Shown: positions 21,928-63,764 of the stretch, piece after piece | Layout: every line of letters begins with the position of its first letter | Numbering within the stretch: position 1 is the stretch's first letter | DNA from: Nibricoccus aquaticus | Lineage (GTDB): Bacteria > Verrucomicrobiota > Verrucomicrobiia > Opitutales > Opitutaceae | Reading direction: 5' to 3' | Length of the DNA stretch: 64,000 nucleotides | Assembly (NCBI RefSeq): GCF_002310495.1 | Contig: NZ_CP023344.1 | Location: 868,001 to 932,000, forward strand | The notes under the pieces: model-generated | What the model was told of the DNA's origin: nothing | Database searches by the model: none | What the model saw: only the letters and a program-made list of their open reading frames with translations | Position numbers and translations under genes: made by a program

Positions 21928-21970
21928 CCCGCCACCCATGCCCACCCGCCCGCGCTCAGCCCCTCCGACA

Positions 21971-22003
21971 CTGATCACTGGTCACTGGTCATTGGTCATT
22001 CCC
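21971..22003 (+). repeat. Heptad repeat, GGTCAYT family, upstream of the GldG-like gene
   Basis: Units CTGATCA, CTGGTCA, CTGGTCA, TTGGTCA and TTCCC run in phase with period 7 and end 34 bases before the start codon. Confidence 0.8.
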
Positions 22004-23573: not shown

Positions 23574-23608
23574 CTTCATCATTCATAATTCTTCATTCTT
23601 AATTTCCC
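23574..23608 (+). repeat. Heptad repeat, TTCATTN family, just before the DUF4340 gene
   Basis: Units TTCATCA, TTCATAA, TTCTTCA, TTCTTAA follow in 7-base register. The tract fills the spacer and ends 6 bases before the GTG start of the next gene. It is markedly AT-richer than the genes around it. Confidence 0.8.
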
Positions 23609-23614
23609 GATCCC

Positions 23615-25612
23615 GTGCGCACCAAAGTCACCCTCGTCCTCGTTTTCCTCAACGTAGCCCTCTTCTACGTCATCTTCTTCGTGCAGGAGAAATGGAAACC
23701 CGCGACCGACACCTCCGTCATCCTCGGCCCCGAAGTCGCCAACATCCAGTCCCTCACCGTCACCGACAACACCACCGGCGCCACGACCGCCCTCGAACGC
23801 CGCGGAGAGAAATGGTTCCAGACCCAGCCCCTCGCCTGGCCCGCCAACGAACTCGCCGTCCGCACCATCATCAGCGAACTCCAGTTCCTCCGCCCCATCT
23901 CCCAGTTCCCCGTCGCCGACCTCGAAAAAAGCGGCCTGAGCCTCGCCACCTACGGCCTCGAAAAACCCCCGCTCACCCTCTCCTTCACCCCCGCCACCTC
24001 CCCCGGCGCCCCGGCCCCTGCCCCCGTCCTCGTCCGCATCGGCAACTCCACCGATGTATCCAACTACCTGTATATCCTCTCGCCCGACGGCACCCGCATC
24101 CACGTCGTCCCCCGCACCCTCGCCGAAAGCCTCTCCCGCACGCTTCAAAGCATGCGCTCCGACGAACTCTTCACCATCCGCGTCTTCGAAGCCCGCTCCC
24201 TCAACCTCGAACCCGCCGCCGGCTCCCGCGTCCGCTTCCGCCGCGAAAACGACAAATGGTTCATCGAAGGCCTCAGCATCAGCCTCACCCGCGCCAATAA
24301 ACAACTCACGGAACTCGCCCTCGCCGACCTCCGTGCCCTCCGCGTCCACAGCTTCGTCAACCCCACCGCCCCCGAAGCCGAAGCCGCACGCGCCGCCCTC
24401 GCCACCCCCGCCCTCCGCATCACTATCGAGGGCAACAACCGCCGCGAGACCCTCCTCCTCGGCCCCGTCGCCCCCGCCGCCTCCGTACCTTCCGAATCCG
24501 CCTCTCAACCAGCAACCCTCAACCCTCAACTCCCCGACTCCCCGCCCGAACCCGCCACCCTCCGCTACGCCTTGATGGAAACCGACGAAACCGGCGGCAC
24601 CACCCCCGCTCGCGCCACCCTCTTCACCGTCTCCATCCGCGATAAATTCCTCAACGGCACCCTCCTCAACGCCCAGCGCGAACTCCGCGAAAAACAAATC
24701 CTCGACCTCGATCCCTCCACCCTCTCCTCCATCACCATCGCCTCTCCCCAATCCACCCAGGAACTCGTCCTCCAGCGCCTCGACACCTCCAACGCCTGGC
24801 AGATCGTCCTCCGCAACCCCGGCCGCGAAGTCCAGACCCAGCCCGCCGACCGCTCCATCGTCGAAACCCTCATCGCCAGCCTCGTCCGCCTCTCCGTCGA
24901 CGACACCCCGGAAAACCCCGGCTTCATCGACGTCGCCTCCGAAGCCCAGAAAGAAGAGTTCGGCTTCAACCGCCCCGCCCGCACCCTCACCTTCACCGGC
25001 CCCCCCGCGCAGCCCCCCGTCCGCCTCCTCATCGCCTCCAGCCAGGACCGCCGCACCTACGCCCGCCTCGCCAGCCAGGAATACATCTACCGCATCTCCG
25101 ACGAAATCCTCCGCGAACTCCCCGTCGATCCCCTCCACTACCGCGAACGCCTCCTCCGCGAACTCCCCGCCAGCACCACCCTCACCGCCCTCAAACTCAC
25201 CGACCTCTCCAACGACACCGTCGTCCTCGACACCTCGCTCCCGCTCCCGGCTGACACTACGCTCAACCGCGAAGCCATCGAGTCCCTCGCCACCCAGCTC
25301 CGCACCCTCCGCGCCAAAAACTTCACCGCCACCGAGTTCACCAAAACCGTCACCACCGCCGGCGAAGAACGCGGCTGGAAATACCGCCTCGACGCTTCCC
25401 TCACCTCCACCCCCACCAGCGCCCCCGTCACCTCCACCCTCTTCATCGCCGACCGCTCCGGCGGCGGTATCCAGTTAGTGGGCTCACCCGAATTCAACGC
25501 CGTCTTCGAAGCCGAACAACCCCTCATCGAAGCCCTCTTCCCCCTCACCTACGGCCCCCGCGACCCCGGCCCTCCCCCCGCCCCGGCCCCAACAGCAACC
25601 CCGGCCCCCTGA
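23615..25612 (+). CDS. DUF4340 domain protein
   Basis: A 665-residue protein with one N-terminal membrane helix (TLVLVFLNVALFYVIFFVQ), followed by beta-rich repeats of the DUF4340 type (TALERRGEKWFQTQPLAWPA, then LEKSGLSLATYGLEKPP). DUF4340 proteins are commonly encoded next to GldG-like genes and are thought to work with them at the membrane. The start is GTG. Residues 297-309 (SQPATLNPQLPDS) are encoded by a 7-base periodic tract like those in the spacers. A Pro/Ala-rich tail (PPPAPAPTATPAP) ends the protein. Confidence 0.85.
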   Translation: MRTKVTLVLVFLNVALFYVIFFVQEKWKPATDTSVILGPEVANIQSLTVTDNTTGATTALERRGEKWFQTQPLAWPANELAVRTIISELQFLRPISQFPVADLEKSGLSLATYGLEKPPLTLSFTPATSPGAPAPAPVLVRIGNSTDVSNYLYILSPDGTRIHVVPRTLAESLSRTLQSMRSDELFTIRVFEARSLNLEPAAGSRVRFRRENDKWFIEGLSISLTRANKQLTELALADLRALRVHSFVNPTAPEAEAARAALATPALRITIEGNNRRETLLLGPVAPAASVPSESASQPATLNPQLPDSPPEPATLRYALMETDETGGTTPARATLFTVSIRDKFLNGTLLNAQRELREKQILDLDPSTLSSITIASPQSTQELVLQRLDTSNAWQIVLRNPGREVQTQPADRSIVETLIASLVRLSVDDTPENPGFIDVASEAQKEEFGFNRPARTLTFTGPPAQPPVRLLIASSQDRRTYARLASQEYIYRISDEILRELPVDPLHYRERLLRELPASTTLTALKLTDLSNDTVVLDTSLPLPADTTLNREAIESLATQLRTLRAKNFTATEFTKTVTTAGEERGWKYRLDASLTSTPTSAPVTSTLFIADRSGGGIQLVGSPEFNAVFEAEQPLIEALFPLTYGPRDPGPPPAPAPTATPAP

Positions 25613-25892
25613 TGAGCCCGCCCCTCCGATGTAGGCGGGGTGCCCCCACCCCGCGCTCCCTTGGTGGACGTTCCGAGGGTGGCGCACGCCGTCCCGGCGC
25701 GTTGTTCATCCTTTCCGAAGGTGGAGCGCGCACTCCGTGCGCGCTGAGCGCCGCCGACCACCCGCAGCGTTCACGCTCACCCCGTGTCCCCGCCTGCGCT
25801 CCCTCATTGGTCACTGGTCATTGGTCACTGGTCATTACCAACTCCGCCTTCCGCCTTTCCGCCTCCCTTCATGCGCCCGCCGCCTCCCCCGC
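25613..25892. repeat. Spacer with three GC-rich hairpins and a GGTCAYT heptad tract
   Basis: Hairpins are at 25626-25655 (GCGGGGTG/CACCCCGC), 25673-25707 (GGCGCACGCCG, imperfect) and 25716-25750 (GCGCGCAC/GTGCGCGC after the head CCGAAGGTGGA). A heptad tract at 25805-25836 alternates TTGGTCA and CTGGTCA and ends 56 bases before the next start. No gene is supported here. Confidence 0.75.
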
Positions 25893-32717: not shown

Positions 32718-32889
32718 CTCCGAAGGTAGGGCGGATTCGCCGAACCCCGCCGGAACGATGCAGCCCGCATTTCGATCCTCTATCGCGCACCCGCCCCGCC
32801 GTCCCCGCCGCCCCATTGAGCGTTCAACATTAAACGTTCAGCGCTGAGCGTGCTCTCCCGCCCACGCCTCCCCAATCCTGTTAATCCTC
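32718..32889. repeat. Spacer with hairpin, 7-base and 9-base periodic repeats
   Basis: A hairpin at 32718-32757 starts CCGAAGGTAGGGCGG, as at 44960. A heptad tract lies at 32816-32851 (TTGAGCG, TTCAACA, TTAAACG, TTCAGCG, CTGAGCG). A 9-base tract (AATCCTGTT, AATCCTCTT, AATCCTGTC) at 32874-32910 reaches into the end of the sulfatase-like gene and provides its stop codon. The same 37 bases occur exactly at 40976-41012. Confidence 0.85.
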
Positions 32890-34233
32890 TTAATCCTGTC
32901 CAAAATTCCGATTCCTCAACTCCGCGATCTCCTCCGCCCACGCCGCCTCCCCCACGATATTCCGCATCTCCCCCGGATCGCTCTCCAGGTCGAAAAACAA
33001 CCACGGCGAACCATCCGCGTTGAGCACCAGCTTCCGCTTCGCCGTCCGCACACCCCGCCACACCCGGTCGCACTGATGAGGCAGCGCCACCACGCTCGGC
33101 ATCGAGATCTGCGCCCCGCCCACCGGTGCCCGAAGTTCAAATACACCACCCTCCGCGCACGCCACCGTCGCCGCACTCAAATCCACCAACGACACCGCCT
33201 CCCTCCGCCTTTCACTCTTCACCCTTCCCCCTTCACTCTTCCCCACGCTCTTCACGAGCAACGGCACCCGCACCGCCTCCTCGTGCGGCCACCCTTTGCG
33301 AAACAACCCGTGCGCCCCGTGCATATCCCCATGCACCGACGTGAACACCACCACCGTTTCCTCCCACACGCCGCCCGCTTTTAAGCCAGCGAACAACCGC
33401 TCGATCGCCCGATCCGTCGCCTCGATGTGCGCATAATACCCCGCCAGCTCCCGCCGCGCCTTCGCCTCCACCTCGCCCCCGCGCGGCACATTCGCCGACA
33501 ACAAAATCTCCTCCGGCCGCCTCACCGCGACACCCGCCGCCGGCGCATCATACGGCGGATGCGGCGCCTCCAGACTAACCACACCAAACCACGGTTTGGC
33601 CTCCGCACCTTTCGGCTTTGAACCTTCGGCCGTCGGCCTTTCCGCCTCCATCTTTGGCGTTTGAATTTTGGCGTTTGGAGTTTGCGCGCGCAGCCACTCA
33701 CCCGCGCGCCGACAAACAACATCACTCTGATACCCCTCGAACTTCACCGGCTCCGTCAGTCGCGCGCCATGCAGCCACGGATCGTTCAGCAAAAACCCGC
33801 TCTCAAACCCCTCCCAAAACTCAAACCCGCCCCGCGCCTCCACCGGCACGATCGTCCGCGCATGAGCCTCGCCTACCAACGCCGCCGCCGGATCGCGCCG
33901 CGCCAGATGCCACTTCCCGAAAAACCCCGTCGCGTACCCGCGCTCGTTCATCTCATGCGCCACCGTCCGCGCGTTCACCGGCAGCGGATCGTAATAATCC
34001 CGCACTCCGTTCTCCGGCGACAACACGCCCGTCAGCAACGCCGCACGCGCAAACGGCCCGAACGGATGCGGCGTCACCGCCTGCTCATAATTCACTGCCT
34101 CCTTCGCCAGCGCAGCCAGACACGGGGTACGCGCATTCACATCACCCGCATAGCCAGTCGCCGACGCCCGCCACTGCGTCGTCACGACCCACAAAATATT
34201 CGGCCTTCTCCGCATCATCGCACCGTCATCCAC
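32890..34233 (-). CDS. Sulfatase-like protein with a degenerate active site
   Basis: A 447-residue protein with the type I sulfatase fold order: RPNILWVVTTQWRA, ARAALLTGVLSPENGV, GYATGFFGKWHLA, LEAPHPPYD and a late HGDMHGAHGLFRKG. Several catalytic residues are gone: the metal Asp of TDQW is T19, the formylglycine position of C-x-P-S-R is G59 (GPFAR), and the Asp residues of DHGDMxGDHG are V300 and A307. Sulfate-ester hydrolysis therefore looks impossible. Two low-complexity stretches (about 183-213 and 329-346) are encoded by spacer-type 7-base repeats, and the final NFGQD and stop by a 9-base repeat. There is no signal peptide. It lies 8 bases after the DUF1080 gene, in the same operon. Confidence 0.8.
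   Translation of the reverse strand: MDDGAMMRRRPNILWVVTTQWRASATGYAGDVNARTPCLAALAKEAVNYEQAVTPHPFGPFARAALLTGVLSPENGVRDYYDPLPVNARTVAHEMNERGYATGFFGKWHLARRDPAAALVGEAHARTIVPVEARGGFEFWEGFESGFLLNDPWLHGARLTEPVKFEGYQSDVVCRRAGEWLRAQTPNAKIQTPKMEAERPTAEGSKPKGAEAKPWFGVVSLEAPHPPYDAPAAGVAVRRPEEILLSANVPRGGEVEAKARRELAGYYAHIEATDRAIERLFAGLKAGGVWEETVVVFTSVHGDMHGAHGLFRKGWPHEEAVRVPLLVKSVGKSEGGRVKSERRREAVSLVDLSAATVACAEGGVFELRAPVGGAQISMPSVVALPHQCDRVWRGVRTAKRKLVLNADGSPWLFFDLESDPGEMRNIVGEAAWAEEIAELRNRNFGQD
33199..33255. repeat. Heptad repeat inside the sulfatase-like gene (TTCACYC family)
   Basis: Units TTCACTC, TTCACCC, TTCCCCC, TTCACTC, TTCCCCA follow in 7-base register at 33211-33245 and encode part of KSVGKSEGGRVKSERRRE in the minus-strand gene. 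A related spacer tract is at 42834-42865. Confidence 0.75.
33610..33684. repeat. Two heptad tracts inside the sulfatase-like gene (TTCGGCN and TTTGGNN)
   Basis: The first part (TTCGGCT, TTGAACC, TTCGGCC, GTCGGCC) matches the tail of the coaX-flanking repeats. The second (TTTGGCG, TTTGAAT, TTTGGCG, TTTGGAG) is a pure 7-base array. Both are translated in frame as residues 183-208 of the protein. Confidence 0.8.
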
Positions 34234-40816: not shown

Positions 40817-41175
40817 TATCCGGCTCCGTTGCCTTTTGTAGGGACGCACCACTGGTACGCGCCACCGAGCGCCATCGCGCGCGGCTTCGCCTCCCCTCCT
40901 GTAGGCCAGCGTGCTTGCACGCGCTCCGGTTATGGGACTGCGGTGCCTCAGCACACGCCCCTGCATCTCTCACCCAATCCTGTTAATCCTCTTAATCCTG
41001 TCCAAAATTCCGCCTCCCCGTTTCCCCCGCCTCCTCCGCTCCTTCGCCCTTCAGCGCTTTCGTGATCTCCGACTTCGTCCCCCTTCCGGCCCTTCGCGAG
41101 ACCATTTTCTTACGCTCCGAAAACTTCCCCTCACTCCCCGCGCACCCTCCGCCCCCGCCCATCGTCTTCCCCTCC
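40817..41175. repeat. Spacer with hairpin and 9-base periodic repeat
   Basis: A hairpin at 40902-40930 (GTAGGCCAGCGTGC, loop, GCACGCGC) is almost identical to 44933-44958. At 40976-41012 lies an exact 37-base copy of the 9-base tract at 32874-32910. At 41044-41067 a heptad-like tract, CGCCCTTCAGCGCTT followed by TCGTGAT, recurs at 62457-62480. No gene is supported. Confidence 0.8.
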
Positions 41176-63734: not shown

Positions 63735-63764
63735 CCCAACTACCAACTACAAACTACCAACTCC
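63735..63764. repeat. Heptad repeat, CAACTAC family
   Basis: Units CAACTAC, CAACTAC, AAACTAC, CAACTCC follow exactly in 7-base register, in the divergent spacer between lptG and the Na+ symporter gene. Confidence 0.8.

Follow-up and report, generated by a model that had tools for sequence, protein, structure and literature searches.

Fixed-polarity heptad words in two variable loops of a predicted sulfatase-fold protein of Nibricoccus aquaticus

The window analyzed here is a 64,000-nt stretch (positions 868,001-932,000) of Nibricoccus aquaticus contig NZ_CP023344.1, a single contig of 4,730,447 bp (genome G000). A minus-strand gene at window positions 32890-34233 holds two blocks of 7-base units (heptads) and ends within a 9-base array; the features considered are as follows.

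21969-22000, plus strand: intergenic heptad array of the TCAYTGG family.
23575-23604, plus strand: intergenic array of TTCATAA-like heptads, ending 11 nt short of a predicted start.
24506-24530, plus strand: CTCAACC-family heptad array within an ORF that has a DUF4340 domain.
25804-25834, plus strand: TCAYTGG-family heptad array close to the 5' end of an ORF whose YhdP/AsmA match is weak; it may be the leader of that ORF.
32874-32900, plus strand: 9-base word AATCCTGTT-AATCCTCTT-AATCCTGTC (lag 9), whose complement gives the last residues and TAA stop of the gene below.
32890-34233, minus strand: gene for a predicted sulfatase-fold protein of 447 aa, holding both heptad blocks (PF00884 and SGSH_C matches; structure model).
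33211-33244, plus strand: block B, a CTTCACY-family heptad word (GAAGRGT on the gene's strand) found by lag-7 identity, encoding GKSEGGRVKSE.
33610-33652, plus strand: degenerate part of block A, CCTTCGG/CCTTTCC-like heptads (lag-7 identity 19/36, P 0.0016), encoding MEAERPTAEGSKPK.
33653-33684, plus strand: clear part of block A, a TTTGGMG-family word (CAAACKC on the gene's strand) found by lag-7 identity, encoding QTPNAKIQTPK.
34057-34059: codon of Gly59 of the sulfatase-fold protein.
40976-41001, plus strand: second copy of the 9-base word, intergenic.
63736-63762, plus strand: heptad array of the CCAACTA family in a predicted ORF cut at the window edge.

The 447-residue product matches PF00884 (E 7e-29) and also SGSH_C, and all 60 other family genomes searched contain a match to it (best E at most 3.1e-55, some of these being possibly non-orthologous). 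Foldseek groups its fold with the S1 sulfatases (best match 6j66, E 1.3e-27, TM 0.78 by query length). S1 sulfatases carry a catalytic Cys or Ser within a C/S-x-P-x-R motif; here a Gly is aligned opposite the Ser of yidJ at that position, such that the catalytic residue expected of the PF00884 family is absent. The Gly, residue 58 by alignment numbering and 59 by that of the 447-residue protein, is at least 90% conserved in 38 sequences. Because Gly replaces the catalytic Cys/Ser and is conserved among orthologues, we regard the product as a sulfatase-fold protein for which standard sulfatase activity is improbable. An AlphaFold2 model built with 38 sequences has a mean pLDDT of 91.2, falling to 72, 52 and 63 in the three 10-residue blocks spanning model residues 181-210 and to 64 in block 331-340 (model residue = protein residue minus 1); the remaining 10-residue blocks below 80 are those at the two ends of the chain. 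Loop A links helix 168-182 to strand 214-219. The model supports the placement of both heptad blocks in low-confidence loops (loops A and B) that are predicted to be disordered.

Repeat structure was assessed by identity at a fixed lag, relative to 5000 shuffles of each block. Block A, taken over 33610-33684, has a lag-7 identity of 38/68 (shuffles 19.4±3.7; 0/5000 equally high); its clear part scores 18/25 (P 0.0006), and its other part is degenerate yet periodic. Block B, taken over 33211-33255, scores 25/38 (shuffles 15.1±2.9, P 0.0012), with a periodic core at 33211-33244 (21/27, P 0.0002). Among 50,000 random coding stretches from an 864-kb sample of the same genome, 0.03% reach the value of block B (45 nt) and 0.02% that of block A (75 nt), each block exceeding the 99.9th percentile of its own genome's coding DNA. 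The 9-base array has a lag-9 identity of 15/18 (0/5000 shuffles as high). These values bear out the sequence-only reading of the gene, which had placed two heptad blocks inside a sulfatase-like frame and its last codons and TAA stop inside a 9-base array, and the peptides that it quoted for the inserts are correct. It had further held that the blocks are exactly divisible and so keep the frame open; the frame is open, since the inserts of the gene taken together preserve it and bring no in-frame stop, but the divisibility arises from the block ends that were chosen (the unit is 7, and the periodic cores measure 32-34 nt).

A conserved word of 9-base period, approximately AATCCTGTT AATCCTCTT AATCCTGTCC AAAA..TTCCG, is seen at 32874-32911, 40976-41013 and 18 further sampled loci. 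A one-unit pattern finds the 9-base word at 20 loci of the 864-kb sample, 20/20 on the C-rich strand; the exact two-unit pattern gives 0 matches, because the units alternate G and C.

Two overlapping sets of orthologous loci were compared, one of 30 loci of the family and one of 81 (the window gene and 80 genome records, titled mostly Opitutaceae, Opitutae or Opitutus, some just Verrucomicrobia). In the first set, loops A and B vary in length and sequence between conserved flanks, and many genomes match the query only in two pieces flanking residues 184-210. Across the 81 loci, loop A has a median length of 9 aa (range 4-78; window gene 32) and loop B one of 12 aa (range 11-36; window gene 18). 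A period of 7 (lag-7 z above 3) is present in loop A at 20/81 loci (two of which, L166 and L192, are 9-aa loops and possibly chance), in loop B at 11/81 and in both at 8 loci; the same threshold is passed by 2.3% of 3,140 control stretches from the same genes. The pooled identity of loop A is 0.44 for lag 7 as for lag 14, 0.41 for lag 21 and 0.23-0.33 for the others. In loop B it is 0.41 at lag 7 vs 0.31-0.38 off multiples of 7, a family-wide signal that is modest because self-similarity of this loop is high at every lag. As determined from alignment, blocks A and B are extra sequence relative to the orthologues, in agreement with the insertion that the sequence-only reading had asked homologues to confirm: other loci lack the same stretches, most having short loops and others different heptad arrays at those places.

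The word families at loop A differ among orthologues (CAAAN-type, GCGGAAT, CGGAGAC-like, CAAGTAA and others), and a few orthologues have a long loop A without period 7 (L002, L014). On a quickly built tree from which loops A and B were left out, at least 16 changes are required to explain which loci are periodic at loop A, and well-supported branches force 8 of them; 68/500 shuffles are as low, such that the label is scattered almost randomly and gain cannot be told from loss. Same-genus pairs yielded no empty and filled site at base level (the compared pairs, at 65-85% amino-acid identity, are too divergent), and neither sulfatase loop of the close pair G002/G050 (L012, L013) contains a heptad array. 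Separately, L002/L152 carry a different insertion without period 7 at loop A (SGFSPD...), L011 (L200 is apparently the same record) carries a long in-frame loop A insert in which heptads of one sense are followed by their reverse complement, a possible hairpin, and L193 has a long loop A insert whose peptide suggests the same arrangement.

Beyond this gene, a census of the 864-kb sample (arrays with a score of at least 11) returned 52 arrays: 31 inside predicted genes, 4 at gene edges and 17 intergenic. Genes were called by a simple script and are unannotated, some in-gene arrays thus being leaders; with that proviso, arrays are denser outside genes, the 13% non-coding part holding 17/52. Seven word families (one with a single member) take in 46/52 arrays, 44/52 measure 25-37 nt, and one 29-nt CTCAACY word is identical between two loci. 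Segments scoring at least 15 number 27 at lag 7 vs 0-1 at lags 4, 5, 8, 10, 11, 13, 16, 17, 19, 20 and 22; in 500 kb of a second genome (G003, 5,957,605 bp, the sample being partly chosen around known arrays) the figures are 22 vs 0-2 at the same lags. Further clear excesses in scans at lags 4-22 fall at multiples of 3 (codon structure) or 7. Among 61 genomes, exact three-unit TCAYTGG words occur in 4 and CTCAACY words in 13, with the most CTCAACY matches (68) in G003.

The arrays have some recurrent surroundings. CTCCG brackets them on the same strand within 20 nt (21/52 and 15/52 on the two sides; background 4.4%). Three TCAYTGG arrays (L035:1113, L042:9876, L043:19129) share ~18 nt of left flank (CTGCTA..CGCGCCAGCG), as if carried with a larger repeat, and the intergenic arrays at L077, L080, L033, L034 and window position 23575 end 4-11 nt before a predicted start codon. 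Similarity of the flanks at array ends is raised (5.04 vs 4.5-4.6; 0/200 shuffles as high at 20 nt), an excess too small to claim a target-site duplication.

Some in-gene arrays lie in conserved enzymes, as the lag-7 scans of other genes suggested by the sequence-only reading were meant to find. A helicase gene (DEAD_2, Helicase_C_2; L035:3914-6571) holds three, and several of 29 other helicase orthologues have heptads at the same loops; near residue 693 the word is CTCAACY in the window's genome and three others, AAATCTC-like in one and TCATTGG-like in one. An HI0933-like protein has one array at about residues 188-197, where the listed orthologues, the window genome's excepted, have no period-7 loop. 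Over three orthologue families (89 inserted segments, 4,506 nt) lag-7 identity is 0.378 vs 0.280 in whole genes (0.370 when the window's genome is left out) and lag-14 identity is 0.347 vs 0.280, with differences of ~0.02 or less at other lags. Pfam domains are found in the array-bearing helicase, HI0933-like, MMPL, DUF4340 and LolA-like ORFs; the arrays of the YbeY and NadA ORFs precede the domain, which makes them possible leader sequence, that of the GH3 gene sits at its edge, and the array-bearing ORF L042:19024-19998 has no Pfam match. The occurrence of heptad words within genes is largely general beyond the sulfatase-fold gene.

The orientation of the words is close to invariant relative to chromosome composition. 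In the 864-kb sample, 79/80 word loci lie on the C-rich strand (20 of the 80 are 9-base words; patterns were written in the orientation first met in arrays, and some loci are close together), the sole exception being a TTTGGMG word at L078:3676; arrays of decidable orientation agree at 41/44, with 8/52 dropped. Genome-wide, the orientation expected from the GC skew of the local 10 kb is shown by 37/37 exact CTCAACY matches (22 loci; 21 forward, 16 reverse) and by 20/20 CTTCACY matches (15 loci; 16 forward, 4 reverse). GC skew is -0.17 to -0.37 across most sampled stretches of 0-2.1 Mb (four are near zero or positive; the window itself is at -0.33) and +0.12 to +0.34 across most of 2.17-4.26 Mb (one stretch is negative), with an additional switch between 4.470 and 4.493 Mb. 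A CTCAACY locus at 1.59 Mb violates the rule of two halves, yet the local skew is reversed there. Composition alone is insufficient to explain the polarity, because TCAYTGG (19/19 loci on the C-rich strand) and TTTGGMG (3/4) are not themselves C-rich. In G003, where skew switches near 1.6-1.7 and 4.1-4.3 Mb and three stretches of the first part are near zero, the C-rich strand of the local 20-kb stretch carries 35/43 decidable arrays and the opposite strand 8/43 (5/48 undecidable); polarity is less strict there than in the window's genome. We also note that skew in G000 is very strong (~-0.3 and +0.25 on the two halves) and depends little on gene strand; in G003 and G012 the stretches sampled reach only ~0.14.

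Array orientation tracks the replication strand, not the gene, if GC skew is taken to report replication. A ribosomal L2 gene and an EF-Tu-type motif, both on the minus strand of the 0-2.1 Mb half, suggest that the C-rich strand is the lagging one; 16S rRNA gave no strand marker, no RF00177 match being returned for the window's genome. The dnaA gene, at position 376, is away from any skew switch, and was left out of the placement of the origin for that reason. Of the 22 CTCAACY loci, 15 lie at 1.0-3.0 Mb, no more than ~1.1 Mb from the skew switch at 2.1 Mb, the putative origin. Two simpler causes of orientation were rejected: avoidance of stops as the sole cause, as intergenic arrays are equally biased (12/14 decidable, of 17), and co-direction with neighbouring genes, as orientation tracks chromosome position and local GC skew.

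With polarity fixed, genes of one strand read most word families free of stops, and genes of the other read TGA or TAG. Of the 27 in-gene arrays of decidable orientation (4 undecidable dropped), 26 belong to genes with a C-rich sense strand; the C-rich strand accounts for 56% of coding bases, giving a P of 5e-6, which is nominal because of the clustering of arrays and because a stop within an ORF prevents its being called. The single array in a gene of the other sense is block B, which reads against its gene, as do 2/14 decidable in-gene arrays of G003. The block B units on the gene's strand are GAAGAGT GAAGGGG GAAGGGT GAAGAGT GAAAGGC; unit 2 ends in G, where the consensus T would give an in-frame TGA at codon 336, and a T ending units 1, 3, 4 or 5 gives no stop.

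The observations to be explained are therefore the extra sequence, its recurrence at the same loops, the period of 7, the word families, their polarity, the scarcity of stop-sense arrays and the low confidence of the modeled loops. Our preferred reading, to which we give an overall probability of about 0.7, is that blocks A and B are captured copies of dispersed, degenerate, polar heptad words. We hold the captured-polar-word description to be highly probable; the fork-coupled spreading step is put forward tentatively, at clearly less than even odds. The words, of about four 7-base units and mostly 25-37 nt, would form a handful of genome-specific families in a single orientation relative to replication, and would be gained and lost at permissive loops. 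Within coding DNA, their survival would require an insert that preserves the reading frame and units that introduce no in-frame stop. Two disordered loops of the sulfatase-fold protein would have been lengthened by such words, a third, 9-base word now giving the C-terminal codons and stop. Since the fixed polarity, shared words and ~30-nt size fit such a process, we infer that short single strands, all of one polarity, may spread the words by being annealed or ligated into gaps in single-stranded regions of the fork, with the lagging strand the likeliest place; displaced Okazaki-fragment flaps or template switches at the fork are possible sources of these strands, and slippage could afterwards alter the number of units. 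The sequence-only reading had stated that the repeats can spread into genes and be tolerated as loops: tolerance as loops agrees with the structure model and the orthologues, and the repeats may either have passed from spacers into genes or have arisen in both.

Several other explanations were weighed against captured, dispersed words. Arrays could be born in place, with no dispersal, through polymerase slippage on local sequence (an idea that, for long simple repeats, invokes a 7-nt polymerase contact). Over-representation of heptanucleotide repeats in many bacteria, for which slippage is proposed in excerpts of PMC4679880 and PMC4692102, is compatible with this, as are the few arrays that are long and homogeneous (L042:9876, 81 nt); most arrays, however, are degenerate words common to unrelated loci, as the seven families attest, the words look less G+C-rich than the 63% genome, and two families that are not C-rich nevertheless keep to the C-rich strand. 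Birth in place is on this evidence unlikely. That we are dealing with ordinary fast-evolving, low-complexity loops, periodic by virtue of amino-acid composition, is hardly credible: the loops are indeed rich in Ser, Pro, Glu and Arg and vary in length even without repeats (as in L002 and L014), but codon or amino-acid repeats predict lags 3, 6 and 9, whereas lags 7 and 14 (plus 21 at loop A) show the excess and lags 6 and 9 do not, and the same words are found between genes.

The words might be kept by selection, either for a signalling role that depends on DNA polarity (as with KOPS, AIMS or Chi) or because they supply unstructured leaders close to starts, with the loop copies a by-product; this would suit the near-perfect polarity, the several intergenic arrays that end just before a predicted (script-called) start, and the uneven spread of CTCAACY loci around the 2.1-Mb switch. 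We nonetheless judge it distinctly unlikely, given that many unrelated families share one polarity, that families differ among genomes, that loop A is periodic at scattered points of the tree, and that the crowding is towards the inferred origin, unlike KOPS and AIMS, which crowd to the terminus. Insertion that is polar relative to replication is a property of IS200/IS605 elements and some group II introns, and a mobile-element enzyme, either a Y1 (IS200/RAYT) transposase or a reverse transcriptase (of a retron, DGR or group II intron), might carry the words; the window's genome has three Y1 matches (best E 2e-5) and one RVT_1 match (E 8e-10). G016, however, has no Y1 or RVT_1 match (one Pfam model each), yet its sulfatase loop A is periodic (L005, lag-7 44/98; L157, apparently the same record, z 3.7), and G003 has no RVT_1 match (one Pfam model) despite the highest CTCAACY count. 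These genomes contradict a shared Y1 or reverse transcriptase machinery, the enzyme not being present wherever the arrays are; with one Pfam model for each, such an enzyme seems not to be required, and carriage by it is very unlikely.

To our knowledge, heptameric bacterial repeats have no accepted origin. Rickettsia palindromic elements resemble the words described here as small dispersed repeats inserted in frame within unrelated proteins, and differ in being palindromic, longer (about 100-150 nt) and not tandem. Also related are the short tandemly repeated heptanucleotides (STRR) and kindred heptameric repeats: these are known in Xanthomonas and Nostoc and over-represented in many bacterial genomes (PMC4692102, in excerpt), and known also in Beggiatoaceae, cyanobacteria and Bacteroidetes, with families mixed in some genomes and mostly intergenic (PMC4679880, in excerpt). 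The period of 7 and the heterogeneous units, about four being preferred in Xanthomonas and Nostoc (PMC4692102, same excerpt), are alike; here too 7-nt units are in clear excess over neighbouring lengths and are degenerate, commonly about four per array. The difference is that many copies here lie in frame inside predicted protein genes. Xanthomonas GGGAATC repeats are described in that excerpt as having no leading or lagging preference (PMC4692102), whereas orientation here follows the replication strand. At the P6b loop of the tRNA-Leu(UAA) intron of Nostoc, classes of heptad repeat are repeatedly replaced along the tree (PMC4476775, in excerpt); this too is a single tolerant loop that hosts 7-nt motif classes within a functional gene, but it is an RNA stem-loop with pairing repeats, whereas those described here are protein loops in which the repeats encode peptide predicted to be disordered. 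Tandem repeats inside Borg ORFs also make new disordered regions, recently and independently (PMC9879509, in excerpt), from nearly perfect units divisible by three, in contrast to the degenerate, dispersed 7-base units here. Within the heptad literature surveyed, mostly titles and the starts of abstracts, neither a polarity relative to replication nor repeated capture in the loops of proteins was encountered for heptads.

A broader claim, that chromosomes of this bacterial family host a fork-coupled process, needing no known transposase or reverse transcriptase, which disperses short single-stranded words of fixed polarity and so continuously supplies conserved proteins with in-frame disordered loops, filtered only by stops and by tolerance of the fold, we consider doubtful. 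Strict strand polarity, absent in the one published system found to have been tested for it, makes the replication fork the place to look for a mechanism, and renders such a mechanism testable in laboratory-grown Opitutaceae, a group of soil and water bacteria. The same loops in dozens of orthologues offer a natural experiment in which repeat DNA becomes tolerated peptide in a folded protein.
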